A stretch of 31,463 nt of DNA. Origin: a virus. Shown piece after piece: positions 155 to 31,445 of the stretch. Numbering within the stretch: the first letter of the stretch is position 1; every line of letters begins with the position of its first letter. The notes beneath the pieces were generated by a model. The model was not told the origin of the DNA. It made no database searches and was given only the letters and a program-made list of their open reading frames with translations. The position numbers were made by a program, and so were the translations under genes. The stretch spans positions 1 through 31,463 of the IMG/VR virus record IMGVR_UViG_3300005511_000048; one strand, written 5' to 3'.

Positions 155-1522
155 CTATCCCTCCGTCCCGGTCGCCTTGCGTCGGCCGCGCGGCTTGGTC
201 GACGGCCGGGCCGCGGCTTTCCTCCCCATCCCGAAGTCCAGACTGTTCGCCAGCTCCTTGGCGTATTCCGGCGCCAGGTGCAGGTAGCGCTCGACCATGC
301 GCTCGGAGCGCCAGCCGGCGGCCTTCTGGGCGGCGAGCTTGCCCCGGCCGCTCCGGATGATGTGGCTGGCGGCGTTGTGCCGGCCCCAATGGGGCGTCAC
401 CGTGCGCAGGGTGGCCGCCCGGAGCATCAGGCGGGCCGCCTGGCGCTTGTCGCCCTGGCGGAGCTTCCGGCGTGCCAGGCGCTCCACAACGGCTGCTGCG
501 CGCTCCCGCATGGCCTTCCAGGCGGTCTTGACCTGGAAGCCGCTCTGCCGGCGGGGCTTCTTATAAGGCCGGTTCTTCGGCGTCAGGATCAGGGCGTCGT
601 GCGGGTCGGTCCGAGTCTCGAGGTAGTCGTGCAGCATGGCGACATACCAGTCCGGAATCGACCGGGTGATCGGCTTGCGGTTCTTGCTTCGGGTCCAGCC
701 GAGATAGAACTCTTCGTGGCCGGGCTCGAGGTTGAGCCCGGTGCCGAGCGGATCCGCATAGTTCGGTTGGCGGCGGCTGATGTAGAGCAGCGCGCCACCG
801 CGGATGCCGGTCGCGAAGACGCCGCCGACGAAGATCTTCAGCTTCGGTCCGGCGCATTTCATCAGCAGCCGGACCTCTTCGTTGTAGAGCCACTTGTTGA
901 TCGGCGTCGCGAAGATGTCCTGCACCGGCAGTTCGGGCCGCGGGAAGTCGGCGCCGATCCAGCCCTTCGCCGCGGCGTGGTTCATCACCGCGCAATAGAC
1001 GTTGGCCTCGCGCTGCTTGGTATCGAGCCCATTGCCCTTGGCGTCATGCAGCTCGGAGAAATAGGCGCCGATGTGCGACAGGTCCTTCGGCGATCGCTTC
1101 GCCTCGCCTTTTCGCACCGGGGTCTGCCGACGGCGGTTCTCGTCTTCAACATAGTCGGCGAGGGGGATATCGGCGACGCCGCGGTCGCGCAGGAACCGGA
1201 TCCACTTCGCGACGTATTCGGCTTCCTTGTCCGCGGCGCCGGCGCGCTCGGGATTCTCGGCTACTCGGTCTTGGTACCGCTGCTCGCAGTAATCAGTCGC
1301 AGCTTCGGTGAAGGTGACGACGTGCTGCTCGCCGTAGAGGAGCGCGTTGTAGATCTTGGTTTCGCGCTGCAGCCGGATTTCTTCGACGCGGGCAGCAGCA
1401 CCGGCCTCCCCTGCGCCAATGCCAGTACTCTCGTAAACGGATCGTGACTTCTTCCCGGCTTTGACGGTGCCGCGGAGGTAGTAGTACGTCCGCCCCTTCG
1501 GGACTTTGGCTTTGAGAGGCAT
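155..1522 (-). CDS. int: Phage integrase, tyrosine recombinase
   Basis: This 455-residue site-specific recombinase should carry out integration and excision of the phage. The catalytic set is readable: Arg241 (ATGIRGG), Lys280 or Lys283 in the beta-hairpin (WTRSKNRK), His378-x-x-Arg381 (HWGRH), Trp404 in the His/Trp position (GWRSERM), and nucleophile Tyr413 (ERYLHL). The N-terminus (MPLKAKVPKG...) has the short beta-rich arm-binding look, and residues about 70-190 form the SAM-like core-binding domain. A basic tail of about 40 residues follows the tyrosine. The start lies inside the upstream HTH gene in another frame, and no strong ribosome site is seen, so coupling to that gene is likely. 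It is the next-to-last gene of the leftward operon visible here. Confidence 0.96.
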   Translation of the reverse strand: MPLKAKVPKGRTYYYLRGTVKAGKKSRSVYESTGIGAGEAGAAARVEEIRLQRETKIYNALLYGEQHVVTFTEAATDYCEQRYQDRVAENPERAGAADKEAEYVAKWIRFLRDRGVADIPLADYVEDENRRRQTPVRKGEAKRSPKDLSHIGAYFSELHDAKGNGLDTKQREANVYCAVMNHAAAKGWIGADFPRPELPVQDIFATPINKWLYNEEVRLLMKCAGPKLKIFVGGVFATGIRGGALLYISRRQPNYADPLGTGLNLEPGHEEFYLGWTRSKNRKPITRSIPDWYVAMLHDYLETRTDPHDALILTPKNRPYKKPRRQSGFQVKTAWKAMRERAAAVVERLARRKLRQGDKRQAARLMLRAATLRTVTPHWGRHNAASHIIRSGRGKLAAQKAAGWRSERMVERYLHLAPEYAKELANSLDFGMGRKAAARPSTKPRGRRKATGTEG

Positions 1523-3910: not shown

Positions 3911-4782
3911 CTCCCTGCGCCCTCCAGGCTTCGGGAGACGGGTGCCGAGGCGGGGAACTCGCGGATCCGCAGGTCGGCCGGCCATTCGGCCGGGTCGCCA
4001 CCCTTGCGGTCCTTGGTTTTGAAGGTCAACTGCTGCAGGCGGGGGTTGCTGCCGAGCTGCTTGTCGAAGACGGCGATGCCCCGCAGCTGCGCCCATTCGA
4101 GCGCGAGTGCCATCCAGGAGAGGTGGAACAATCTTGCGTTCGGACCGGATTCACCGCCGATCACCATCCACTTCAGGAAGCCCCAGTTGATCCAATCGAC
4201 GCGCTCAAGGGCCGGCTCGTAGGAGACCCAGGTCAGCCAGCCTTCGCCGGCGAGATCCGCCATGGGGTGGCGTCGCTGGTTGGCGCGCGCCTGATCCTCG
4301 ATCGAGGTGCCGAGCCAGACGTTCGGCAGCGGCCAGGCACTGCCGGCGCGCAGGGTGCAGTCGCGGACGGTGTTCGCGCGCATGTATTTGCGCATGCGCT
4401 GAGGCCGCTTGGTCAGGACCTGGAAGGTGTGATGGTTGCACAGCGCCATGACGGCGAAGATCTTGTCCAGGAACGCATCCGGCACTTCGTCATGGAAGAT
4501 GTCGCCGTGGCTCGGCACGAAGATCTTGCGCGGTTTGGTCCAGGTCAGCGGATCGGAGAGGCGGTCCTCGCGCAACGCGACCTTGCCGGTCCAAACCAGC
4601 TTGCCGTTCCGGCTCTCGACCAGGCCCTGCAGCGGGCCCGCGATCTTCGGGTTCGGATTGTGGGCGAGGCGCCAGATCAGCGGCACCGCATAGCAATTGG
4701 TGCAGCCGGGGCTCTCATAGTCGCAGCCCTGCACGATCGGCCAGGTAGAATCGGTCCACTCGACGCCGGTCTCATAAGCCAT
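3907..4782 (-). CDS. DUF5131 (phage Gp37/Gp68) family protein
   Basis: This 291-residue protein is a full-length member of the Gp37/Gp68 (DUF5131) family. The N-terminal 'GVEWTDSTWPIVQGCDYESPGCTNCYA' carries the family's three cysteines (Cys20, Cys27, Cys30), which resemble a radical-SAM-type Fe-S site but with Cys-x6-Cys-x2-Cys spacing. Later hallmarks are 'IFVPSHGDIFHDEVPD', 'HTFQVLTKRPQRM', 'LPNVWLGTSIEDQ', 'WVSYEPAL', 'WMVIGGESGPNAR' and 'FDKQLG'. The barrel-like series of strands fits a TIM-barrel enzyme. The substrate is unknown; the family is frequent in mycobacteriophages and proteobacterial prophages. Its ATG shares one base with the upstream stop (TGATG). Confidence 0.93.
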   Translation of the reverse strand: MAYETGVEWTDSTWPIVQGCDYESPGCTNCYAVPLIWRLAHNPNPKIAGPLQGLVESRNGKLVWTGKVALREDRLSDPLTWTKPRKIFVPSHGDIFHDEVPDAFLDKIFAVMALCNHHTFQVLTKRPQRMRKYMRANTVRDCTLRAGSAWPLPNVWLGTSIEDQARANQRRHPMADLAGEGWLTWVSYEPALERVDWINWGFLKWMVIGGESGPNARLFHLSWMALALEWAQLRGIAVFDKQLGSNPRLQQLTFKTKDRKGGDPAEWPADLRIREFPASAPVSRSLEGAGR

Positions 4783-5039
4783 CAGTGCACACTCCCGCAG
4801 CCGCCGGTGTGCCGGTCGATCACCTTGTCGGTCTCATCGGCGACCGCGTCGATGAAGTTCAGCGCGCCTTCGGGGTCGTAGCAGCCGAAGGCCCGGACCT
4901 TGCCGGCGGCGTCGTGGAGGCGGATCCAGATCGTGCCGTGCTCGCAGGACACGACCGTCATGTGATCGGCGGCGAAGGCGTCCGGGTCGGCAAGCTGGTG
5001 ATCTTCGGCTTCGCGCTTGATGTCGTCGGCTTCGGCCAT
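4782..5039 (-). CDS. Small hypothetical phage protein
   Basis: An 85-residue protein starting MAEADDIKREAEDHQLADPD. This ATG lies one base after the stop of the upstream lipoprotein gene; an alternative in-frame start at 5060 would overlap that gene and is less likely. The central segment 'DHMTVVSCEHGTIWIRLHDAAGKVRAFGCYDPEGALNFIDAV' reads as a compact beta-sheet with a helix, a layout seen in several small phage proteins. The C-terminus has His and Cys residues (DRHTGGCGSVH). No function can be assigned. Confidence 0.72.
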   Translation of the reverse strand: MAEADDIKREAEDHQLADPDAFAADHMTVVSCEHGTIWIRLHDAAGKVRAFGCYDPEGALNFIDAVADETDKVIDRHTGGCGSVH

Positions 5040-5040
5040 G

Positions 5041-5193
5041 TCAGTTCCCCGCCAGTCCAATCGCGGCGCCGGCGACGTCGAAGGCCAGGCCGCCCAACCA
5101 TTTGTCGGAACGATCAGCGCAGCCCGTCACCGCGGCGGCGAGCGCGCAGATGAGAAGTATGCCGATCAGGAGCTTGACGTCGGGGCGGTTCAC
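5041..5193 (-). CDS. Small predicted lipoprotein
   Basis: A 50-residue protein from a GTG start (5193-5191), chosen because it overlaps the stop of the upstream gene as GTGA. Residues 8-24 are hydrophobic (LLIGILLICALAAAVT) and end in a lipobox, VTGC, with the acylated cysteine at residue 25. The remaining 25 residues (ADRSDKWLGGLAFDV...) would then be exposed at the membrane. It resembles tiny phage lipoproteins used in exclusion or lysis, but it has no spanin partner here and lies in an early operon, so the role is open. Confidence 0.65.
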   Translation of the reverse strand: MNRPDVKLLIGILLICALAAAVTGCADRSDKWLGGLAFDVAGAAIGLAGN

Positions 5194-5513
5194 GCGATTC
5201 CCCTCTTCCGGTTGTCGATCACCTGGCCGGTATGCCGTCCGCATTCGCGGCAGAATTGCTGCCGGCGTTCCTCGATCATGTCGCGCGGGCCGGTGAAAAC
5301 CATTTCGTAGCGACAGGGCGGCGGCGGCAGATGCGCATGCTCGGAGCCGACCGGGTGGCTCTGCTTCAAGCGCTCGACGTCGCACTCCGAGAAGATGTCG
5401 TGGTTGTGCTGAAAGTGCCCGGGCTGGCCGTTCGACAGGCGATCCGGAAACTTGATCGTCCGATAGCCGGTGATCCGGAAGGTGATGTTGGGATGGACGT
5501 TAGGCTCGGTCAT
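5190..5513 (-). CDS. Hypothetical protein with C-terminal CxxC
   Basis: A 107-residue protein starting MTEPNVHPNITFRITGYRTIK. The start is set by the ATGA overlap at 5513-5510; the longer open frame upstream belongs to the preceding gene's other strand reading. It is rich in His and Pro in the middle (QHNHDIF, SEHAHLPPPP), and ends in 'RRQQFCRECGRHTGQVIDNRK', a Cys-x2-Cys-Gly-x-His knuckle that could bind zinc. I do not recognise the family. The GTGA overlap with the downstream lipoprotein gene suggests coupled translation. Confidence 0.65.
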   Translation of the reverse strand: MTEPNVHPNITFRITGYRTIKFPDRLSNGQPGHFQHNHDIFSECDVERLKQSHPVGSEHAHLPPPPCRYEMVFTGPRDMIEERRQQFCRECGRHTGQVIDNRKRGIA

Positions 5514-5947
5514 GCAGCGCTCCGTTCCTCGGCTTGCCTGGTCGCGGCGCGTCCGGTTTCGGAGTTCCATACCTGCGGCAGATGCGACCAGTGGGTGTGA
5601 TAACCAGGCCAGTCGCTGTCGCCGGGCGAACCGCACCAGGGCGCCTCGCTCACCGGCAGCTTCCACCACAGGACGGGCCCGAAATCTTCATGCCAGGTGT
5701 CGGCCGGGTAGAGATCCAGGAACTTTGCCCCGATCGCCGCGCGGCGGTGCTCAACCTCGCGGTTGTTCGCCTCCAGGAGCTCGGTCACGCGGGCGTCATG
5801 CTCCTTCAGTGTCACGAAGCCGTAGGCACGCGGATCCTGTTGGACGGCCAGCATGGTGCTGCTGACCAGTTCATCGACGAAGACCGAGGCGGCGTTCTTG
5901 ACGGCCTGATTCAAGGCGGTGTTCACCAGCTTGTCGTGGTCGGTCAT
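5510..5947 (-). CDS. Phage protein with DUF551-like C-terminus
   Basis: A 145-residue protein. The N-terminal 80 residues are helical (MTDHDKLVNTALNQAVKNAASVF..., then an 'EHDARVTELLEANNREVEHRRAAIG' coiled-coil-like stretch). The C-terminal part 'GPVLWWKLPVSEAPWCGSPGDSDWPGYHTHWSHLPQVW' echoes the short aromatic-rich W...YHTHW..LP motif of DUF551-type phage proteins. The resemblance is by eye and moderate. It is coupled by ATGA to both neighbours (5947-5944, 5513-5510). Function is unknown. Confidence 0.75.
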   Translation of the reverse strand: MTDHDKLVNTALNQAVKNAASVFVDELVSSTMLAVQQDPRAYGFVTLKEHDARVTELLEANNREVEHRRAAIGAKFLDLYPADTWHEDFGPVLWWKLPVSEAPWCGSPGDSDWPGYHTHWSHLPQVWNSETGRAATRQAEERSAA

Positions 5948-6402
5948 GCGCCGGTCTCCAGCACCGCAGCCAGGGCGGAGATGCAGAGATCCAGTTTCAG
6001 AGATACATGGGTGGTCGGTAGGCCGCGCCGAACCTCGTCCGGCGTCATGCTCGGTGTCTTCAAGTGTTCAAGCCGCGATCGTGGCCTTGGGGCGATCCGG
6101 TGGACGACGACGCGTGTCAACCGCTCGCGTTCTGCCAGCAGGAGAGCGCCGGCGCGTTCCAGATTGCGAGCCCTGGTCTTCGGCTTCCACCATTTGACAT
6201 CCCAGGGCCAGCCGAGCGGTGCGCCGTCCTCGCGCAGTGTCATGCCATGACCGGTTCCCCAGTGCATATAGATCATCGCGGCGCGCAGCATCTCGCCGTC
6301 GCTATGCTCATCATCATGCGCCAGGGTCCAACCTTCCACGGCGATCTGCCGCTTGCGCTCGGCTTCGACCAGGCTGCGCGCGGTCGCGAGAAAGTCGGTC
6401 AT
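5944..6402 (-). CDS. Conserved phage hypothetical (AERKRQ...HDDEH family)
   Basis: A 152-residue protein from ATG 6402-6400 (ATGA overlap with the HD-domain gene). The N-terminal block 'LVEAERKRQIAVEGWTLAHDDEHSDGEMLRAAMIYMHW' is typical of a large family of phage proteins beginning with an 'eR.rQi..eGwt.ehDDeH..geL..AA..Y' motif, followed by 'LGWPWDVKWWKPKTRARNLERAGALLLAERERL'. The His-Asp-Asp-x-His cluster could form a metal site, but no activity is known. The C-terminal 40 residues, after the conserved part, look like a family-specific extension. Confidence 0.85.
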   Translation of the reverse strand: MTDFLATARSLVEAERKRQIAVEGWTLAHDDEHSDGEMLRAAMIYMHWGTGHGMTLREDGAPLGWPWDVKWWKPKTRARNLERAGALLLAERERLTRVVVHRIAPRPRSRLEHLKTPSMTPDEVRRGLPTTHVSLKLDLCISALAAVLETGA

Positions 6403-11018: not shown

Positions 11019-11390
11019 TCAGTCCTCGGCGCGCGGCTGGTGCTGGAAGATCAGGTCCGGCTCGGCCGCCGAGCCGGCGGCCGACACGTCGTCGGCCACG
11101 GCGAGCGTGGCGACACGCTCGATCGCGCGGGCGAGGCTGGTGTGGTGGGGAGACATCGTGCCGTCGATATAGGCGGCATCCTTGCGATAGCGGCCGGCGG
11201 TCCAGATGATCGCCAGCGGATCGGCGTCGCAGTCGCCGTCGGCGGTGATCAGCGCGAACTCGTCGTTCTCGAGGTCCTTGCGCCAGGCCTGGACGTTGCC
11301 GCCCATGTTCTCGCGGCGCCAGCCGGCGGCCGTCATGATCTGCTCGGCGGCGCTCGGCGTGGCGGCGGTCGCGGTGGTCTGGTCGGTCAT
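11019..11390 (-). CDS. Hypothetical protein with GWRRE-AWRKD domain, copy B
   Basis: A 123-residue protein and the first gene of the leftward operon. Residues about 14-72, 'AAEQIMTAAGWRRENMGGNVQAWRKDLENDEFALITADGDCDADPLAIIWTAGRYRKD', align with the domain in the 195-residue product encoded downstream. A ribosome site (GGGAG) lies seven bases before the ATG. It is the first product expected after derepression of the leftward promoter, about 100 bases upstream. The protein is acidic in its C-terminal third. Function is unknown. Confidence 0.78.
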   Translation of the reverse strand: MTDQTTATAATPSAAEQIMTAAGWRRENMGGNVQAWRKDLENDEFALITADGDCDADPLAIIWTAGRYRKDAAYIDGTMSPHHTSLARAIERVATLAVADDVSAAGSAAEPDLIFQHQPRAED

Positions 11391-11494: not shown

Positions 11495-11524
11495 GTGTTA
11501 CGACATCCGGAACATTGGCGTCAA
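11495..11524 (-). promoter_or_regulatory. Predicted promoter of the leftward operon
   Basis: On the minus strand, TTGACG (11524-11519) is followed, after 18 bases, by TAACAC (11500-11495). The same arrangement (TTGAAG, 17 bases, TAACAC) precedes the Cro-like gene. The match to a -10 box is weak, but the two loci share 18 identical bases from ATGTTCC to TAACAC. Operator O2 lies between the two boxes, so bound repressor would block polymerase. A leader of about 100 bases would precede the first gene. Confidence 0.6.
11496..11514. promoter_or_regulatory. Predicted repressor operator O2
   Basis: TGTTACGACATCCGGAACA is a 19-bp site of the form TGTTCCG-N5-CGGAACA with one arm mismatch. It is identical (read on the other strand) to the site at 13413-13431. 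It lies between the putative -35 and -10 boxes of the leftward promoter. Confidence 0.75.
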
Positions 11525-11530
11525 GCAGTT

Positions 11531-11549
11531 TGTTCCGATAACCGGAACA
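11531..11549. promoter_or_regulatory. Predicted repressor operator O1
   Basis: TGTTCCGATAACCGGAACA has perfect 7-bp inverted arms around a 5-base spacer. Its centre lies exactly 35 bp from the centre of O2, the same spacing as in the second module. It is upstream of the leftward promoter and about 43 bases before the predicted start of a divergent rightward transcript toward the WYL-TerB gene. The rest of the 242-base gap (11391-11632) holds the leader, a ribosome site (GGGGGAGGG) and a GATTC site at 11555-11559. Confidence 0.78.
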
Positions 11550-11632: not shown

Positions 11633-12634
11633 ATGATAAATTATTGGCTCGCGGCGTTTGCAATCCTGGGCGCGCTGCTCTTCCTATATTTCCGTTCGCG
11701 CTCGAAAACGGAGCCCAGCATCGAGCCGCCCGTCAGCAACGATGACGCTGATGCCTGGAAGGCTGTGTTCGAGCAGCGCGCTGCGAGCGTGCCTTACCGG
11801 GCACCGGCATCGCCGTCGGGAATAGTCTTCACCGTGTCGGTCGATCCCCAGGACGATTACTTCGGCGACGCTGTCGCGGATCCTGTCCTCTCTCGCGGCG
11901 AAGATGACATGGACGTCAAGATCGACCTGGACAATGCGGGCGCGCGCGCTGCCGGCGGCACGTTCGACAAGCGCGCACGAGACACCGTCGTCGGAATCAA
12001 GTACGTGGATGCGCGGGGCGTGGAGACGGTGAGAGATATCGCCGTCTGGCAGTTCAACAACTTCTATCTCGGTGCATGGTGCTTCGAGCGGCAGCGGCCT
12101 CGCACCTTTCGATGGGATCGCATCTCAGCGGCATTCGACGCCAAGACCGGAGAAATCATTCCAGACCTGCGCGCGATGTTGCGCGACATCGCCGACCAGA
12201 GCGAGACCTGGAAACCGCTTTGGCCTATCGTGAGGCGCGGCCTTCGCATCCTCGCCTATATTGCTCACTGCGATGGCAGTGTGCATACAGCAGAGCGGGA
12301 CGTCATGCGGTCGTATATCAGGTCAGCTCTGGCGGCATCAAAGGATTCTCCGGCCGTCAATGATGAGACATTGACAGCCCTGGTCAGGCAGACGGAGCGA
12401 ACGCTGCCGCATCCGGACAGCCTTCAGGAATCGCTGGATGCGATCGTGACGCATGAGCGCCAAAGCCAGCGTTATCGCATCATCGCTGAGCACGCCTTGC
12501 AACTGGTCGAAGCCGACGGGACGATAACGCCGGAGGAACAGGCAATGGTGTCGGGCCTTCGCGATTGGCTTAGCCGCATGGAAGTTAAGAAGGCCGCGAA
12601 GTCGAAGCGAGCAAAACTGCCGAAGGCTGCTTAA
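11633..12634 (+). CDS. Membrane-anchored WYL-like and TerB-like protein (accessory gene)
   Basis: A 333-residue protein. Residues 2-20 are one hydrophobic span (YWLAAFAILGALLFLYF) followed by a basic stop, so the rest should be cytoplasmic. Residues about 117-178 (VVGIKYVDARGVETVRDIAVWQFNNFYLGAWCFERQRPRTFRWDRISAAFDAKTGEII) read as a WYL domain, a ligand-sensing fold common in defence and regulatory proteins. Residues about 200-315 resemble a TerB (tellurite-resistance) helical domain with two acidic metal-type motifs, HCDGSVHTAE and EADGTITPEE. It is rightward, against the early operon, has a strong ribosome site (GGGGGAGGG), and ends tail-to-tail with the repressor (shared TTAA). Its placement inside the immunity region suggests expression in the lysogen, for example in superinfection exclusion or host defence, which is inference. 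Confidence 0.85.
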   Translation: MINYWLAAFAILGALLFLYFRSRSKTEPSIEPPVSNDDADAWKAVFEQRAASVPYRAPASPSGIVFTVSVDPQDDYFGDAVADPVLSRGEDDMDVKIDLDNAGARAAGGTFDKRARDTVVGIKYVDARGVETVRDIAVWQFNNFYLGAWCFERQRPRTFRWDRISAAFDAKTGEIIPDLRAMLRDIADQSETWKPLWPIVRRGLRILAYIAHCDGSVHTAERDVMRSYIRSALAASKDSPAVNDETLTALVRQTERTLPHPDSLQESLDAIVTHERQSQRYRIIAEHALQLVEADGTITPEEQAMVSGLRDWLSRMEVKKAAKSKRAKLPKAA

Positions 12635-13344
12635 GGTTCTGGTCGATAGCTTCCGACCACCAGGGCTGTAATTCTCAGGTGGTCATTGGTTTCATCGAAG
12701 TCATCTTCGCCAGCTGCCGGCACCTTCCAAGGCTGCTGAAACTGCGGATGGTCTGATCGCGGCCAGAGCCACATCTGGCCATCAGCATCGATCTGCAATT
12801 CCTTGACGGTCGCTTCCATCAACCCAACTTCGTTGATGCGTTGAACCACCACGCGCATCCCGGTCTTGGGTTCCCACCCATCAGCAGACTGGGCGAGGTC
12901 GAAAACACTCACGACCACAACGATTGAACCCTCAGGGTAAAGGCGGTTCATGGACGGACCATTGACCGCCAGGCCTTCTTTCTTGAAGCGCCCATATCGA
13001 GGGTCAGTCGGAATGTCCATTTCGTACTGGTCAGCGGGTTCGTAAAGGACCGTGTCTTTGAAAACTCCAGCTGCAACTTCACCGACGACCCGGATTGATC
13101 CCATCCGCCGTGGTGTGGGATCCAAATTGAGCGGAAGCACCGACCGATCCGAGAGCTGCGCCAACAATCGATCGGCTGGCCACTCGAGATAAGCCGCGAT
13201 GGTCGGGACCTCCGACGCGCCAATTTTCCGCTCCCCGGAAATCATCTCGCTCACGCGAGAACGGGGCAGGCCCAGCACTTCGGCCAAACCCATCTGGGTT
13301 TTTCCGATCGCTTTAAGTCGTTCTTTCAACCACTTGTTCCGCAT
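12631..13344 (-). CDS. CI-like repressor, HTH plus S24 peptidase domain
   Basis: A 237-residue phage repressor. The N-terminal XRE-type helix-turn-helix covers residues about 5-65 (LKAIGKTQMGLAEVLGLPRSRVSEMISGERKI). The C-terminal LexA/S24 domain shows Ala92-Gly93 as the likely self-cleavage site (GEVAAGVF), Ser131 as nucleophile (VNGPSMNRLYPEGS), and Lys181 (EATVKEL) as the base. It should dimerise, bind the four 19-bp operators, and be cleaved when RecA is activated by DNA damage. The ATG at 13344 was chosen because the helix-turn-helix begins there; the frame stays open upstream through the operators, with a GTG eight codons earlier as the alternative. No ribosome site precedes the ATG, so a leaderless message is possible. 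Confidence 0.93.
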   Translation of the reverse strand: MRNKWLKERLKAIGKTQMGLAEVLGLPRSRVSEMISGERKIGASEVPTIAAYLEWPADRLLAQLSDRSVLPLNLDPTPRRMGSIRVVGEVAAGVFKDTVLYEPADQYEMDIPTDPRYGRFKKEGLAVNGPSMNRLYPEGSIVVVVSVFDLAQSADGWEPKTGMRVVVQRINEVGLMEATVKELQIDADGQMWLWPRSDHPQFQQPWKVPAAGEDDFDETNDHLRITALVVGSYRPEP

Positions 13345-13350
13345 TTCGTA

Positions 13351-13379
13351 AGTATCGCGGCGCACAAGTGATTCGGATG
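13351..13379 (-). promoter_or_regulatory. Predicted repressor-maintenance promoter
   Basis: A GATACT box (minus strand, 13356-13351) lies six bases before the repressor ATG, placing the transcript start at or next to the ATG. The -35 region (about 13379-13374) is a poor match and overlaps both the edge of operator O3 and a GATTC site (13370-13374). O3 is centred about 43 bases before the start, the position from which lambda CI activates its own promoter. This is inference from spacing. Confidence 0.4.
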
Positions 13380-13396
13380 TACCGATCTTCGGAACA
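13378..13396. promoter_or_regulatory. Predicted repressor operator O3
   Basis: TGTACCGATCTTCGGAACA fits TGTTCCG-N5-CGGAACA with one mismatch in the left arm. Its centre is 35 bp from that of O4. It lies upstream of the -35 box of the Cro promoter and on the -35 side of the repressor promoter. A more degenerate copy, TGTTCCG-CATTT-CGTAAGT, is seen at 13335-13353 over the repressor start codon and may be chance. Confidence 0.72.
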
Positions 13397-13403
13397 AAAT
13401 TCC

Positions 13404-13432
13404 TTGAAGTTATGTTCCGGATGTCGTAACAC
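13404..13432 (+). promoter_or_regulatory. Predicted rightward promoter of the Cro-like gene
   Basis: TTGAAG (13404-13409), a 17-base spacer and TAACAC (13427-13432) precede the ATG at 13441 by only eight bases, so the message may be leaderless; no ribosome site is visible. The spacer contains operator O4. The same layout precedes the leftward operon. Confidence 0.55.
13413..13431. promoter_or_regulatory. Predicted repressor operator O4
   Basis: TGTTCCGGATGTCGTAACA is the exact reverse complement of the O2 site at 11496-11514, with a single arm mismatch from the consensus. It covers most of the spacer and the -10 box of the rightward promoter. Confidence 0.75.
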
Positions 13433-13440
13433 GCATCCCT

Positions 13441-13746
13441 ATGAACATCGCCAAGCATGTCATTTCCAAGTGTGGCGGCGCCGCCGTGGTGGCCAGCTGG
13501 CTCGGTCGGCGTGCCGCCCGCGTTTACCATTGGACATACGATCGATCCCGAGGCGGGACGGGCGGTCTGATCCCAGCCGGTGAGCAAGTCCCTTTGCTGC
13601 TCGCCGCACGCGCCGACGGCGTTGACCTCCAGCCCATCGATTTCTTTGGCATGACCGAACTGCCCCCGCTTGGAAAATCCAATGCGGGGAAGGTGGCCAC
13701 GCCTACGCAAGGCCTCAACGACAATCCCCGGGAGAAAGTGGCGTGA
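13441..13746 (+). CDS. Cro-like regulator, carph-isopro-type HTH
   Basis: A 101-residue protein divergent from the repressor. The N-terminal 70 residues (MNIAKHVISKCGGAAVVASWLGRRAARVYHWTYDRSRGGTGGLIPAGEQVPLLLAARADGVDLQPIDFF) match the small phage HTH type in which a cysteine/glycine 'fGG...vA..lG.....V..W....gIPa....LL..A...g..l...dFF' pattern forms the whole domain. It is the expected Cro counterpart, competing for the operators in the intergenic region and starting the lytic programme. A flexible tail of 30 residues follows. The last bases overlap the next GTG start (GTGA). Confidence 0.85.
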   Translation: MNIAKHVISKCGGAAVVASWLGRRAARVYHWTYDRSRGGTGGLIPAGEQVPLLLAARADGVDLQPIDFFGMTELPPLGKSNAGKVATPTQGLNDNPREKVA

Positions 13747-15137: not shown

Positions 15138-17390
15138 GTGCTGCTGGACAATGAAATCATCGTCGACAACTTCGCCGGCGGGGGCGGGGCATCCGAAGGG
15201 ATCGAGCAAGCACTCGCCGTGCTCGCACCCGGCCGCTTCGTCGATATCGCGATCAACCACGATCCGGAAGCGGTCACGCTCCACAAGGCCAACCACCCGC
15301 GGACCGAACACTATTGCCAGTCGGTCTGGAAGGCGGATCCGCGCGATGTGACGAAAGGCCGGCCGGTCGGCCTCGCCTGGTTCTCGCCGGACTGCAAGCA
15401 TTTCAGTAAGGCCAAGGGCGGCAAGCCGGTCGAGAAGAAGATCCGCGACCTGGCCTGGGTGGTGGTGCATTGGGCCAAGCTGGTGAAGCCCCGCATCATC
15501 ATGCTGGAGAATGTCGAGGAGTTCCGCGACTGGGGCCCGCTGATCGAAGCCGAAGGCGGCAAGCTGGTGCCGTGCCCTCTGCGCAAAGGGCTCACCTTCA
15601 AGCGCTGGGTGCGCGAGCTGCGGAAGCTCGGCTATGTGGTCGAGTACCGCGAGCTCCGGGCCTGTGATTACGGCACGCCGACCATTCGCAAGCGGCTGTT
15701 CCTGATCGCGCGCTGCGACGGCGCGCCGATCGTCTGGCCGAAGGCGACGCATAAGCCGGGCAAGGTGAATGAAGACGGCATCGTGACCAAGTGGGCGAAG
15801 GGCCGGGGCCTGACGCTCCGCGATATCCAGGCCCTGAAGCCGTGGCGGACCGCGGCGGAATGCATCGACTGGTCGCTGCCGTGCCCCTCGATCTTCGACC
15901 GGAAGAAACCCCTGGCTGAGGCCACGCTGCGGCGGATCGCGCGCGGCATCCAGCGCTATGTCCTCGAGGCGCAGAAGCCGTTCATCGTCCGCACCGACAT
16001 GACCAGCGGCGCCCATAAGAACGGGTTGCACGATCCCGACGACCCGATGCGCACGCAGACGACGGCGAACTCCTTCGCCGCGGTCGAGCCGTTCATCGTG
16101 CCGATCACCCATCATGGCGACGATCGCTGCCATGGCGGTGGCGAACCGACGCGCACGGTCACGACCGCGCATCGCGGCGAGATGGCCATTGTGGTGCCGA
16201 GTGTCGTCGGCGTCGGCGGGCGGGCAGGGCAGTCGCGCCCGCGGGGCGGCGGCGAGCCGTTGCAGACGTTCACCGCCAAGGCCGATTCCGCACTCGTCTC
16301 GGCGACGCTCATCAGTCGGCACAGTGATCACGGCACTGACGTGCGGGCGAACTCTCCGGAGGATCCGGCGAGCACATTGACGGGCAGCGGCGGTCCTTCG
16401 GTCGTCGCCGCGCATCTGACCAAGTTCCGCGCGAACTCGATCGGCTCGGACATGGCGGATCCTGTGCCGACCGTGACGGCGAACAGCTTCATCAAGCGCC
16501 CGGGCGGGGCACCGCCGATTGGCGTCGTGGCGGCGCATCTGCAGCGCCAGTTCGGACACTCTGTCGGCAGCGATGCGGAGGATCCGGCGGGAACGGTGAC
16601 GGCGGGCGGCGGGGGCAAGACCGCGCTCGTTGCCGCCACCATGGTGCAGACCGGATACGGCGAGCGCGAAGGCCAGGCGCCACGCGCGCTCGATATCGAG
16701 AAGCCAGCCGGCACCGCGGTCGCGGGCGGTGCGAAGGCCGCCGTGGTCGCCGCCTTCCTGGCACAGCACAACACCGGGCTGGTCGGTCACGATGCGGAGG
16801 AGCCTGTCTCCACCATCATCGGCAAGGGTTGCACGCAGGCGGTGGTCGCCGCCTCGCTGATGGTCAACACGACCGGGCATTCCGGTGCCGCAGCGGATGA
16901 CGTGATGCCGACGGTCACGACCGGCGGGCATCACGCCGCGGTCGCGGCCCATATGCTGAGCCTTAAGGGCTCGGACCGCCGCGATCGTCCGGCCGATGAA
17001 CCGGCGGCTTCGGTCTGCGCCGAAGGTACGCATGCCGCTTTGGTCGCGGCCTTCATGCAGAAATACTACGGCACCGGCGGCCAGGACGCGCCGGCCGACG
17101 AGCCGATGCACACCGCGACCGCCAAGGCGCGGCACGGCCTGGTCACGGTCACGATCGACGGCGAGAGTTACGTCATCGTCGATATCGGCATGCGGATGCT
17201 GACGCCGCGGGAGCTCTATCGCGCGCAAGGATTCCGCGACAGCTACATCATCGATCCGCCCTTCAACGGCAAGCCGTTGACCAAAACCGCGCAGATCCGC
17301 ATGTGCGGGAACTCGGTCTGTCCGCCGATGGCGACCGCCCTGGTGCTGGCGAACTTTGCCGCACCGGTCGAGCAGAGCGAGGTCGCATGA
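15138..17390 (+). CDS. DNA cytosine-5 methyltransferase with internal repeat array
   Basis: A 750-residue enzyme that should transfer methyl groups from S-adenosylmethionine to cytosine C5. Motif I is DNFAGGGGASEG (residues 10-21), the catalytic cysteine is Cys86 in a variant motif IV (SPDCKHFS rather than PPCQ-type), motif VI is ENVEEF (124-129), and motif VIII is TIRKRLFLIA (182-191). Motifs IX/X lie near the end (MLTPRELYRAQGF, QIRMCGNSVCPP). Between them, residues about 280-675 are not a normal recognition domain but about 11 degenerate repeats of 32-40 residues. The start is a GTG with a GAGG about 12 bases upstream. Its stop overlaps the next ATG (ATGA). The product may protect phage DNA or mark it for regulation. 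Confidence 0.93.
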   Translation: MLLDNEIIVDNFAGGGGASEGIEQALAVLAPGRFVDIAINHDPEAVTLHKANHPRTEHYCQSVWKADPRDVTKGRPVGLAWFSPDCKHFSKAKGGKPVEKKIRDLAWVVVHWAKLVKPRIIMLENVEEFRDWGPLIEAEGGKLVPCPLRKGLTFKRWVRELRKLGYVVEYRELRACDYGTPTIRKRLFLIARCDGAPIVWPKATHKPGKVNEDGIVTKWAKGRGLTLRDIQALKPWRTAAECIDWSLPCPSIFDRKKPLAEATLRRIARGIQRYVLEAQKPFIVRTDMTSGAHKNGLHDPDDPMRTQTTANSFAAVEPFIVPITHHGDDRCHGGGEPTRTVTTAHRGEMAIVVPSVVGVGGRAGQSRPRGGGEPLQTFTAKADSALVSATLISRHSDHGTDVRANSPEDPASTLTGSGGPSVVAAHLTKFRANSIGSDMADPVPTVTANSFIKRPGGAPPIGVVAAHLQRQFGHSVGSDAEDPAGTVTAGGGGKTALVAATMVQTGYGEREGQAPRALDIEKPAGTAVAGGAKAAVVAAFLAQHNTGLVGHDAEEPVSTIIGKGCTQAVVAASLMVNTTGHSGAAADDVMPTVTTGGHHAAVAAHMLSLKGSDRRDRPADEPAASVCAEGTHAALVAAFMQKYYGTGGQDAPADEPMHTATAKARHGLVTVTIDGESYVIVDIGMRMLTPRELYRAQGFRDSYIIDPPFNGKPLTKTAQIRMCGNSVCPPMATALVLANFAAPVEQSEVA
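15975..17160 (+). repeat. Repeat array inside the C5 methyltransferase
   Basis: Protein-level tandem units of about 32-40 residues, each with a core like 'G.D.AEDPAGTVTAGGG...ALVAA': examples are EPTRTVTTAHRGEMAIV, DPASTLTGSGGPSVVAA, DPVPTVTANS, DPAGTVTAGGGGKTALVAA, KPAGTAVAGGAKAAVVAA, EPVSTIIGKGCTQAVVAA. The bases are diverged, so the repeats are old in this copy. They fill the target-recognition region. Confidence 0.8.
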
Positions 17391-27208: not shown

Positions 27209-27877
27209 ATGCAGGAAGCGCAGGCTGAACAACGTCTTGTGACCAAGGGGCAGTTGGCGAAGATCGCCGGCGTCTCGCCCGGCCGCGTCTCGCAGTGGAT
27301 CGCGGAAGGCAAGGTCACGAAAGAGGCCATGGTCGGCGAAGGCCGGTCGGCAATGATCGATTTGAACATTGCCGGTCCGCAACTCGACCTCACCCTCGAC
27401 TTCGATCAGCGCCAGGCTCAGGCGATCGCGAAGCCAACGACGGCGATAGCGACGGCCAGCATCACGCCGGAGCAGCAGCGGATCGCCGCAGTCAAAGCGG
27501 AGACGGCGGAGATTGAGCTTCGGCAGCTTCGCCGGCGCGAGCAGGAGCAGCAGGGCGTTCTGATCCGCGCATCGGAGGCGCGGCAAGTTTTCGGGCGCGA
27601 GCTCAGCGAGTTGATCACCGCGATCGAGCAGCAGTTCCTACCCGAAGCGGCGGAAACCGTTGCCCGGGAATTGGGAATCGACCACAAGGCGGTGACCACG
27701 ATCCTGCGCGCGGCGTTTCGGGATTTCCGAGCCAAGCGTTCCGACCTGGCCAAGAGCGCCGCGGTGACGACCGCGCAGATGGTGGAAGAGAGTTCGCATG
27801 GAGACCCTGCTCACCAATCCGGAATGGATGGTGCAGGACATCCTGTCGGAGAGCCTGGAGCCGCCGCCGCCGGTTGA
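27209..27877 (+). CDS. terS: Terminase small subunit-like protein
   Basis: A 222-residue protein. The N-terminal helix-turn-helix (LVTKGQLAKIAGVSPGRVSQWIAEGKV, residues about 10-36) is the DNA-binding type of lambda Nu1-like small terminases. A long charged helix follows (ITPEQQRIAAVKAETAEIELRQLRRREQEQQGVLIRASEARQVF), as in Nu1, where it drives oligomerisation. It should recognise the packaging site and load the large subunit. The frame overlaps the terL start by 80 bases, and the last 28 residues (SHGDPAHQSGMDGAGHPVG...) are out of frame with terL and look unconstrained. Confidence 0.85.
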   Translation: MQEAQAEQRLVTKGQLAKIAGVSPGRVSQWIAEGKVTKEAMVGEGRSAMIDLNIAGPQLDLTLDFDQRQAQAIAKPTTAIATASITPEQQRIAAVKAETAEIELRQLRRREQEQQGVLIRASEARQVFGRELSELITAIEQQFLPEAAETVARELGIDHKAVTTILRAAFRDFRAKRSDLAKSAAVTTAQMVEESSHGDPAHQSGMDGAGHPVGEPGAAAAG

Positions 27878-29768
27878 CTATCTCGCCTGGGCTGGGCGCA
27901 ACGTCGTCTTCGGCTCGGAAAGCCCGCTGCCTGGGCCCTATAATCGGGAACTGTTCCCGTTCTTCGATCGGATCCTGGAGGTATTGGGGCCGGATCATCC
28001 GGCCCGCACGGTCGTGCTGCAGAAGTCGGCCCAGCTCGGCGGCACCGTGCTGGCACAGATATTCACCGGCGGGTCGCTCGACATGGACCCGTGCTTGTTC
28101 ATGTACATCCACCCGACGACCGATAACGGCACGCGATGGGTGAACACGAAATGGCGGCCGATGCTGCGCCAGACGACATCGCTGGTGGGCATCTTTCCGT
28201 CGACCAAGTCGCGCGATGCCGGCAACTCGATGTTCTATCTCGAGCGCAATGATGGCCGCGGCGCGCTTCTGGTCAGCGGCGCTAATTCCGAGGCGAGCTT
28301 GTCGCAGGTCTCGCCGCGGCGCCAGGTGCAGGACGATCTCTCCAAATGGGAGATGAACAACGCCGGCGACCCGGAAGACCAGGCGGATACGCGGTCGAAG
28401 GCCTTCGACTGGGCGAAGATCTTCAAGATCAGCACGCCGCTGATCAAGGCCGGCTGCAGGATCTCGCGGGCTTACAAGAATTCGACCCAAGAGCGCTTCC
28501 ATGTGCCCTGTCCACAATGCGGGCACATGCACGCGCTTGAATGGGAAAACTTCGTCGCCAACATCGACCCGGAGGATCCGGGTGCAGCGCACTTCACCTG
28601 CCCGAAGAACGGTTGCGTCATCGAGCAGCATCACCTTCGGTCGATGCTGCAAGACGGCCAGTGGGTCGCGCAGAACCCGTCGGCGAAGATCATCGGGTTC
28701 TTTCTCTGGACCGCCTATTCGCTGCTCGAGCGCTGGGAGAATATCGCAGCGCGCTGGATCGCCGCGAAAGGCGACGCCGCGAAAGAGCAGACATTCTTCA
28801 ACGATTGGCTTGGCCTGCCCTACGAGGCGGCGGGTGAATCACCGCCCTGGGAGGAGATCAAGGCCAGGGCGGAAGAAGACGGCCATCAGCGTGGAGTCAT
28901 TCCTGTCGGCGGGCTGCTGCTATCGCTCGGGATCGACTGTCAGAGCGATCGCATCGAATGGCATCTCAGGTCGCATGGACGCGACGTGCGCGCATGGACG
29001 GTCGATTACGGCGTCATCGAGCACCACATCGCGACCGATGAAGGCCGCGCTGCGCTCGACGCGTTGTTGAAACGAGACTGGCCCGACAGCTTTGGCGGAC
29101 GGCGGAGCCCACAGAGCGTCGCGATCGACGGCAACGCCTGGACCGAGGACGTCTATGACTGGGCGAAGCGGCACCCGGCGAGCCGCGTGATGATGGTTCG
29201 CGGTGTCGCCTCGGAGGCCGCGCCCTTCATCGCCCGGGTGAAGCGCGAGCGCTCGCGTGACGGCCGACTGCTGCGGTATGCCCGGCGGTTTTTCAACGTC
29301 GGCACGGCGCCGATGAAGGCGGCCTTGTACAAGCACCTGGCGGTCAAGGATCCGCTGGCGCGTGGGTACAACGGATTCCCGATGGGGATGGAGGACGACT
29401 TCTTCCAGCAGCTCTGTTCAGAGCGCCGGGTGCCCATCAATCGCAAGGATGGGTATGTCGAGTTTCGTTGGAAGAAGGATCCGAGCGTCCGAAACGAGGT
29501 GCTGGACACCGCGATCTATGCCGACGCCGGCGCAGTTCGCCAAGGCTGGCGCACACTGACCGAAGATCAGTGGGACAAGATCGAGGCGCTGCTCGAAAAA
29601 CCGGCGATCGAGAAGGGGCAGCTCGATCTTGAAGACCTTCCGGCCCAGCCGAAGGCGACCGAGGCCGAACCGGCGCCCGAATCGGCGACGGAACCGGACG
29701 TTTCGACGCCAAGAACCGAATCGCAGCCGGTGAAACCCGCCGCGCCGCTTAGCAAAGGTCTCGCCTGA
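27798..29768 (+). CDS. terL: Terminase large subunit, GpA family
   Basis: A 656-residue packaging motor and nuclease of the lambda GpA family. The variant Walker A is KSAQLGGTV (residues 76-84), the Walker B-like block is RRQVQDDLSKW (174-184), and a zinc ribbon has Cys238, Cys241, Cys268 and Cys273. The nuclease acid cluster begins at GIDCQSDRIEW. It cuts concatemers and pumps DNA into the prohead through the portal. The C-terminal 60 residues are Pro/Glu/Ala rich and probably disordered. A GAAGAGAG ribosome site precedes the ATG. GpA-type terminases usually make cohesive ends, so a cos site is expected nearby, possibly at the repeats before terS. Confidence 0.96.
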   Translation: METLLTNPEWMVQDILSESLEPPPPVDYLAWAGRNVVFGSESPLPGPYNRELFPFFDRILEVLGPDHPARTVVLQKSAQLGGTVLAQIFTGGSLDMDPCLFMYIHPTTDNGTRWVNTKWRPMLRQTTSLVGIFPSTKSRDAGNSMFYLERNDGRGALLVSGANSEASLSQVSPRRQVQDDLSKWEMNNAGDPEDQADTRSKAFDWAKIFKISTPLIKAGCRISRAYKNSTQERFHVPCPQCGHMHALEWENFVANIDPEDPGAAHFTCPKNGCVIEQHHLRSMLQDGQWVAQNPSAKIIGFFLWTAYSLLERWENIAARWIAAKGDAAKEQTFFNDWLGLPYEAAGESPPWEEIKARAEEDGHQRGVIPVGGLLLSLGIDCQSDRIEWHLRSHGRDVRAWTVDYGVIEHHIATDEGRAALDALLKRDWPDSFGGRRSPQSVAIDGNAWTEDVYDWAKRHPASRVMMVRGVASEAAPFIARVKRERSRDGRLLRYARRFFNVGTAPMKAALYKHLAVKDPLARGYNGFPMGMEDDFFQQLCSERRVPINRKDGYVEFRWKKDPSVRNEVLDTAIYADAGAVRQGWRTLTEDQWDKIEALLEKPAIEKGQLDLEDLPAQPKATEAEPAPESATEPDVSTPRTESQPVKPAAPLSKGLA

Positions 29769-29996: not shown

Positions 29997-31445
29997 ATGG
30001 CTTTTTTGAACGCAGACGGCTCGAAAATGCAGCGTATGGCGCATGTTTCGACGCCTTCTTACCAGGCGAGCGATCATTTCAGCCAGGAGCTCGCGTCCTG
30101 GCGGCCGTGGCTGGCGTCGCCGGACGCCGAACTGCTCTACGAGCGCGACACGATCACCGCCAGGATCCGCGACCTGGTGCGGAACAACGGTTGGGCGTCG
30201 AGCGCGGTCACCCGCGAGCTCGACAACGTCATTGGAAGCGGTCTTCGCCTCTCCGCGAAGCCAAACTGGCGCCGCCTCGGTCTCTCGGAGGATTGGGCGC
30301 ACGAATTCTCCGCCGACGTCGAGAGCGTCTGGCGAGACTTTGCCGAGGATCCGAACTTCTTTTGTGACGCGGCGCGTCACCATCAGATGAGTGGGTTGTT
30401 CGGGCTGGCTTACCGGCATTATCTGAAGGATGGCGACGCGTTCGGCGTATTGCTGTGGTTGCCGGACCGGCCGTCCGAATGGGCAACGGCGCTGCAGATC
30501 GTGCATCCGGACCGCGTGTCCAACCCGAACGGGCAAGCCGATAGCGATCAGGTTCGCTGCGGTGTCGATCTCGACGAGAACGGTGCCGCGACGGGCTACC
30601 ACATCCGCAAGCGGCATCCCTATGACATCGCCGACACGAACGGCCAGGGCTTCGTCTGGGAGCATGTACCGCGCGAAACCGAGTGGGGTCGGCCGATCGT
30701 CGTTCACCACTATGACAAGGACGCTGCCGGTCAAACACGCGGCATCGGTCGCCTGACGCCGATCCTCGAGCCTCTGAAGATGCTCGAAAAACATGGCAAG
30801 GTCGAACTGCAGGCGGCGGTTCTGAACGCGATTCTGGCGGCCTTCATCGAAAGCCCGCTGGACCATGAGTTCGCAGAAGGCATCATCGGTGGTGATAGCC
30901 TCGGCAAATACCAGGACGAGCGGTCGGCCTTCCACAAGGACCGCAACATCACGCTGGGCGGCGTCCGTGTACCGATCCTGTTTCCGGGCGAGAAGGTCGG
31001 CTTCCAAGCCGCCACGCGACCCAACCCCGCGTTCAGTGAATTCCAAGCCGCCGCGTTGCGCAACATCGCGGCCGGCACCGGCACGGTCAGCTATGAGCAA
31101 CTGTCCGGGGACTGGTCGCGCACTAACTATTCCTCCGCGCGGGCTTCGATGGTCGAGATTTGGAAGTCCCTGATCCGCCGGCGCCGGGATTTTGCGCCAC
31201 GGTTCGCCACGCCGGTCTTCGCCGCGGTGCTCGAGGAGGCGATCGAGACCGGTCGAGTGACCGTGCCCTCCGGCGCGCCGAGCTTCCAGGAGGCGCGCGC
31301 AGCCTATGCCCGCTGCAGTTGGATCGGCCCGGGACGCGGTTGGGTGGATCCGCTGAAGGAGAAGCAGGCGGCGGTGATGGGAATCGCCGCGGGTCTCTCC
31401 ACGCTTGAGGCCGAGTGTGCAGAACAGGGCCTCGACTATGAATAA
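29997..31445 (+). CDS. Portal protein, lambda GpB family
   Basis: A 482-residue portal protein. Residues about 35-330 show the lambda GpB pattern: 'ELLYERDTITARIRDLVRNNGWASSAVTRELDNVIGSGLRLSAKP', 'YLKDGDAFGVLLWLPDR', 'GVDLDENGAATGYHIRKRHPYD', 'RGIGRLTPILEPLKMLEKHGKVELQAAVLNAILAAFIESPL'. Later parts are 'EFQAAALRNIAAGTGTVSYEQLSGDWSRTNYSSARASMVEIWKS' and 'GWVDPLKEKQAAVMGIAAGLSTLEAECAEQGLDYE'. Twelve such subunits form the DNA entry ring. The frame ends right after QGLDYE, where related portals normally continue with a further helix of about 20-50 residues. The bases after the stop read in frame as VQAQIA to the window edge. Confidence 0.93.
   Translation: MAFLNADGSKMQRMAHVSTPSYQASDHFSQELASWRPWLASPDAELLYERDTITARIRDLVRNNGWASSAVTRELDNVIGSGLRLSAKPNWRRLGLSEDWAHEFSADVESVWRDFAEDPNFFCDAARHHQMSGLFGLAYRHYLKDGDAFGVLLWLPDRPSEWATALQIVHPDRVSNPNGQADSDQVRCGVDLDENGAATGYHIRKRHPYDIADTNGQGFVWEHVPRETEWGRPIVVHHYDKDAAGQTRGIGRLTPILEPLKMLEKHGKVELQAAVLNAILAAFIESPLDHEFAEGIIGGDSLGKYQDERSAFHKDRNITLGGVRVPILFPGEKVGFQAATRPNPAFSEFQAAALRNIAAGTGTVSYEQLSGDWSRTNYSSARASMVEIWKSLIRRRRDFAPRFATPVFAAVLEEAIETGRVTVPSGAPSFQEARAAYARCSWIGPGRGWVDPLKEKQAAVMGIAAGLSTLEAECAEQGLDYE

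Follow-up and report, generated by a model that had tools for sequence, protein, structure and literature searches.

We analyzed a 31,463-nucleotide stretch of viral DNA (positions 1 to 31,463 of IMG/VR record IMGVR_UViG_3300005511_000048), referred to here as the window. It represents a temperate, lambda-like phage with an integrase gene (155-1522, minus strand), a terminase gene (27798-29768) and a portal gene (29997-31445), and it also carries leftward genes, Cro-like and CII-like genes, and replication genes. Its immunity region contains the following features.

11019 to 11390, minus strand: first gene of the leftward operon, beyond the left operator (open reading frame; no Pfam match)
11496 to 11514: left operator, outer 19-bp dyad (plus-strand pattern match without mismatches)
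11531 to 11549: left operator, inner 19-bp dyad; the WYL-TerB start codon follows after 83 bp (0 mismatches, both strands)
11633 to 12634, plus strand: gene for the WYL-TerB membrane protein, 333 aa (open reading frame, Pfam, AlphaFold2)
11639 to 11704, plus strand: predicted N-terminal membrane helix, residues 3-24 (hydropathy, AlphaFold2 helix)
11984 to 12139, plus strand: WYL beta-barrel, residues 118-169, with an invariant FRxDRI...TGE (Pfam, alignment, fold match)
12167 to 12616, plus strand: TerB helical domain, residues 179-328; D214, E221 and E302 are its acidic residues of note (Pfam, profile, fold)
12631 to 13344, minus strand: CI-type repressor with HTH_3 and Peptidase_S24 domains, convergent with the WYL-TerB gene (Pfam, PHROG 4)
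13378 to 13396: right operator, inner 19-bp dyad (1 mismatch)
13413 to 13431: right operator, outer 19-bp dyad (0 mismatches on the minus strand)
13441 to 13746, plus strand: Cro-like (YdaS-like) gene that opens the rightward early operon (phrog_8008, Pfam)

The WYL-TerB gene is real: the 333-residue reading frame named in the original prediction is present on the plus strand, with an ATG start and a GGAGG-type ribosome site. Single-protein scans of viral contigs recovered nothing but a 100% identical copy in one other record, IMGVR 3300025297_000088, and the exact gene is thus known from one sequence lineage only (two records).

The operators are four copies of a 19-bp dyad, TGTTMCG-N5-CGGAACA, a number of matches reached by none of 100 shuffles. 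They form a left pair (11496-11549) and a right pair (13378-13431) that mirror each other and share a spacing of 35 bp, and 21 bp of the outer operators are 100% identical, the inverted copy lying at 13412-13432. A third dyad at 13335-13353, which resembles the right operator less closely (2-3 mismatches), overlaps the likely start codon of the repressor. The repressor was assigned to PHROG 4 (transcriptional repressor), and its start is probably the ATG at 13344 (237 aa), because the 359-aa reading frame would run through the right operators. The Cro-like gene matched phrog_8008 (DNA binding protein, E 4e-4) and scored 17.9 bits with the Pfam YdaS_toxin model, short of the cut-off of 30. The repressor and WYL-TerB genes are enclosed by the operator pairs, and beyond these pairs lie the starts of the Cro-like gene and of the leftward genes. 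The WYL-TerB gene is therefore located between two operator modules, as had been proposed, and it is convergent with the repressor and shares stop bases with it: the TAA codons at 12632-12634 (plus strand) and 12633-12631 (minus strand) produce a 4-bp, tail-to-tail overlap.

The leaders pointing inward from the two operators are also alike, with TTTGTTC...GATTCA preceding WYL-TerB and TTTGTTC...GAATCA preceding cI (local score including operators, 100; shuffle maximum, 82). This likeness suggests that the two genes may be under similar, parallel control. Because a consensus scan detected no sigma-70-like promoter, the promoter argument draws on operator and leader symmetry alone. From the mirror-image inner operator and leader, the WYL-TerB gene is probably expressed in lysogeny, but co-expression is not assured because the gene is convergent with cI.

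In phage lambda, rexA and rexB have an exclusion function and are transcribed with, and in the same direction as, cI. The WYL-TerB gene also sits between the left operator and cI, the rex position of a lambda-type immunity region, and shares with rexAB a candidate exclusion function. It differs in being one gene with unrelated domains on the strand opposite to cI, and hence cannot form one transcript with it; 18 of the relatives described below are on the same strand as cI. The proposed resemblance to rexAB thus held for position and failed for orientation.

We next considered the protein itself. Structure prediction had been proposed as a check on the WYL and TerB folds, and Pfam, AlphaFold2 and fold searches agreed on both. 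The AlphaFold2 model, built with 35 sequences (mean pLDDT 78), has an N-terminal helix at residues 3-24, a five-stranded barrel at 118-169 and seven helices at 179-328. Pfam identified WYL (PF13280; 30.6 bits, cut-off 21.8) at residues 119-167 and TerB (PF05099; 33.1 bits, cut-off 24.4) at residues 207-312. The N-terminal helix coincides with a hydropathy peak, in line with the membrane span originally noted; its Kyte-Doolittle value of 2.03 was matched by 110 of 2000 composition shuffles, and the best window outside the N-terminus reached 0.79. Basic residues follow the helix and, by the positive-inside rule, the predicted topology would be N-out/C-in with a cytoplasmic body. Neither DUF4041 nor GIY-YIG was found in the protein by Pfam, and no nuclease or known effector domain was found. 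PADLOC 2.0 matched it with generic WYL models only and with no whole-protein system model.

In Foldseek searches of the PDB, the top matches to the WYL domain were PafBC, BrxR, CapW and DriD, most with a probability of about 1, and DriD structures with ssDNA were among them. PafBC and DriD, both WYL proteins, respond to DNA damage. This raised the possibility that the window protein is a lysogeny regulator, whose WYL domain would sense DNA damage or a nucleotide and which would thereby modulate the repressor or induction. However, PafBC, BrxR, CapW and DriD carry an HTH, whereas Pfam detected no HTH or other DNA-binding domain in the window protein, whose N-terminus is a membrane helix instead and which has TerB; a membrane anchor would also be odd for a repressor cofactor. 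An identity as a pure transcription regulator was rejected because no HTH is present.

The TerB part modeled alone again formed seven helices, with a pLDDT of 86. Its best fold match was the tellurite-resistance protein 2ou3, a modest one (probability 0.90, E 0.2), and the TerB profile picked up 2h5n and 2ou3 by sequence. The two DG-x3-E motifs originally read in this domain proved to be DG-x5-E (D214-G215...E221) and DG-x4-EE (D295-G296...E301-E302). TerB takes its name from tellurite resistance, and its conserved acidic residues could bind metal; prophages, moreover, often carry fitness genes next to cI. These points would fit a general lysogenic-conversion gene that makes the host more tolerant of metal, oxidative or envelope stress and does not itself act against phages. 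We regard such a role as quite unlikely, since no other Ter-system genes were seen among the window proteins scanned (a tellurite-resistance operon was unsupported on the same ground), since the comparable slot in Vibrio prophages, described below, holds defense and exclusion genes, and since WYL domains are often tied to defense regulation according to the passages of Makarova et al. cited here (PMC4012209).

In the 35-sequence alignment, Y124, R134, C150, F159, R160, D162, R163, I164, T172, G173, E174, D214 and E221 were invariant, and E302 was conserved. Invariant residues thus occur in both WYL and TerB, and both domains are therefore under constraint. This bears on the idea that the gene is a passenger with no selected function in the phage. 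Such an idea draws on the restriction of the exact gene to one sequence lineage, which also means that selection on it is not directly measurable; the constraint seen in 35 diverse relatives and in their recurring genomic position makes a passenger very unlikely.

To collect relatives, we searched viral contigs with a degenerate DNA motif for FRxDRI...TGE and obtained 69 stretches, nearly all of them encoding real WYL proteins. The set came from viral contigs or phage records only, which favors phage contexts but not cI adjacency in particular; genome-contig scans (with a two-sequence alignment and a strict WYL motif) gave 0 loci, so chromosomal homologues were unsampled rather than absent, and a wider role on chromosomes is possible. 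No WYL-TerB fusion turned up among 50,697 phage records and 72,556 plasmids at the sensitivity used. A strong hydrophobic segment was present in 27 of the 57 complete WYL relatives, and about half have no membrane helix. Domain order also varied, with TerB following WYL in many relatives and a TerB-like helical domain preceding WYL in others.

At 70% identity, the relatives formed 52 nonredundant WYL(-TerB) groups. A CI-type repressor was the immediate neighbor in 28 of these, always with the WYL gene on the 3' side of cI (p 4e-9): cI was upstream on the same strand in 18 groups and convergent in 10, and the other two orientations did not occur. Gene calls in the surveyed loci were mechanical, and an HTH/S24 profile that we built from just the window repressor lacked sensitivity. 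Because the seeds of the similarity-based repressor list had been picked partly by eye from the same loci, we added independent Pfam tallies. Peptidase_S24 was detected in 16 of 94 immediate neighbors versus 0 of 94 genes at positions 4-5 (Fisher p 1.5e-5), and HTH_3 gave the same counts, 16 of 94 immediate neighbors versus 0 of 94 at that distance. The neighborhood survey called for by the original prediction therefore placed the viral-contig relatives chiefly beside CI repressors; among homologues surveyed in viral contigs, neither a scatter of housekeeping genes nor a fold other than WYL and TerB was encountered.

The other convergent cI/WYL pairs measured (9 of 9) lay between an 18-bp overlap and a 12-bp gap, and the stop-base overlap of the window is therefore a recurrent arrangement. 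Such abutting or overlapping pairs occur tail to tail in unrelated prophages (loci L012, L032, L043, L044, L049, L053, L061, L071 and L072), where coupling through convergent transcription is possible. In L012/L086, the nearest-repressor relative, the repressor is 43% identical to that of the window and the layout is the same. In Acetobacter phage phiAP1, a TM-WYL protein of 171 aa that lacks TerB is encoded in the corresponding place; WYL genes adjoin a regulator or repressor gene in Komagataeibacter phiKM1 and in Yersinia phage 201.16, the latter with the gene order cI, WYL, int. In L004 and L005, which are lytic Stenotrophomonas Autographiviridae phages, 69-aa WYL-only proteins are encoded beside primase/helicase genes and are a different use of the WYL fold.

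As a swap test, we then baited a search with the CI of Vibrio P2-like prophages, which fetched 55 loci. The gene that comes first behind cI, usually at a distance of 24-31 bp, was exchangeable. It encoded TM-TerB-WYL or TM-WYL proteins in 8 loci, WYL-BRCT in 7 and SNIPE/PD-lambda-1 in 5; bPH_3-SHOCT proteins, zinc-ribbon membrane proteins, secreted proteins and others accounted for further contents. The SNIPE/PD-lambda-1 protein of L113 scored 406 bits in PADLOC and carries Pfam DUF4041 and MUG113. Farther along were Lamassu LmuB, pAgo, type II restriction and AriA-like genes. This very cI-integrase interval is a published anti-phage hotspot (Rousset et al. 2022, PMC9122126). In the Vibrio proteins, the TerB-like and WYL domains are in reverse order relative to the window protein, and homology of their TerB-like domain to the window TerB was not established (profile comparison probability 1%). 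They are relatives by WYL and layout, not orthologues of the window protein.

The small WYL-BRCT-like proteins were encoded in L099, L104, L107, L111, L121, L126 and L137; their BRCT was assigned by eye and from a weak match to K139 Orf2. This slot thus seems to be a place where modules of the WYL, BRCT and TerB-like kinds are shuffled. In L131 and L132, the TM-TerB-WYL gene is followed, within the cI-integrase hotspot, by a gene for an unannotated protein of 1262-1266 aa, the L131 copy of which had no PADLOC match. In L112, L119, L120 and L141, the K139 exclusion slot directly behind cI holds a gene for a secreted protein, which in three of the four loci is about 155 aa long. These proteins have a relative in Vibrio phage vB_ValM-yong1 and are candidate periplasmic exclusion proteins.

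These surveys bear on the lysogeny-regulator explanation introduced above. No feature of the family is more constant than its adjacency to cI, and the tail-to-tail overlap could couple the cI and WYL-TerB transcripts. However, the WYL gene does not track repressor lineage: relatives of the window repressor in L084, L085, L087 and L088 lack it, and L088 has an acyltransferase at the slot in its place, as expected of cargo. Moreover, only about 15 of the 55 Vibrio CI relatives have a WYL gene at the slot, and the remainder have unrelated genes, several of them for defense. We therefore consider a regulatory role unlikely; the slot facts fit interchangeable protective cargo better than a cofactor dedicated to the repressor.

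Two known systems occupy comparable positions. SNIPE is a membrane-anchored nuclease that cuts DNA during injection (PMC13190303). Like the window protein, SNIPE/PD-lambda-1 (DUF4041-GIY-YIG) has an N-terminal membrane helix and cytoplasmic domains, and in Vibrio P2-like prophages it uses the same first-after-cI slot as the WYL genes. The window protein differs in having WYL and TerB and neither DUF4041 nor a nuclease, and membership in the SNIPE family was rejected for that reason; SNIPE nevertheless offers a mechanistic model for a membrane-tethered defense protein. The cI-integrase interval of K139 holds orf2 and glo, lysogenic-operon genes directly after cI. Glo is annotated as "involved in phage exclusion," and Orf2 is cited for superinfection immunity in a review (PMC7997343). 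By hhalign, the Orf2 helical domain matched its counterpart in the Vibrio TM-TerB-WYL proteins (E 9e-7, 91%) and, weakly, the window TerB (E 2e-4, 45%), but Orf2 has BRCT at its end and no WYL.

Taken together, these data lead us to propose, with moderate confidence, that WYL-TerB is an accessory gene of the prophage immunity region that protects the lysogen from competing phages by superinfection exclusion or anti-phage defense. By analogy with SNIPE, K139 Orf2 and WYL biochemistry, we infer a chain in which the membrane helix would tether the protein at the inner membrane, the WYL barrel may bind a nucleic-acid or nucleotide signal of the incoming genome near the entry site, and the TerB helical domain would relay that signal, such that DNA entry or early replication would be blocked or abortive infection would follow. 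This chain is putative as regards its ligand, its effector step and the resulting phenotype, and no functional experiment on any WYL-TerB protein was found in the open-licence literature. More speculatively, many temperate lineages might share an as yet undescribed class of lysogeny-linked immunity genes made of shuffled WYL, TerB-like and BRCT modules, in membrane or soluble form; in the anchored forms, WYL would sense incoming DNA locally at the inner membrane and TerB would stop its entry without a nuclease. We hold this wider scheme only tentatively.

The gene had been called possibly undescribed. That does not apply to the domain fusion, which was listed by Makarova et al. in 2014, citing Anantharaman et al. 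2012 (PMC4012209), with a proposed role in defense or stress signaling. The fusion listed there has the same two domains in one chain as the window protein, and the passages cited here present the fusion only, mentioning neither a membrane anchor nor a CI-adjacent prophage position. None of the open-licence papers searched was found to tie this family to the slot beside cI; the adjacency of WYL(-TerB) genes to the 3' side of cI is what is new here. This place, and a slot common with SNIPE and K139 Orf2 in one lineage, turn WYL-TerB proteins into testable superinfection-exclusion candidates and make the window gene a candidate prophage exclusion or defense gene. As a screening rule, the 3' side of cI can be searched for WYL, TerB or BRCT genes to find further prophage defense genes, which could explain protection by prophages that have no recognized system.

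Two further observations were made. In L016, around 3954-6167, a gene for an FRG-domain protein lies between those for the CI repressor and a TM-WYL protein, and the FRG and TM-WYL genes are likely a multigene defense cassette. In the window, positions 15138-17390 encode a cytosine-5 DNA methyltransferase of 750 aa; its PHROG profile match spans residues 3-742 yet uses only about 290 profile positions, which points to a large insertion, possibly an intein or an inserted domain.
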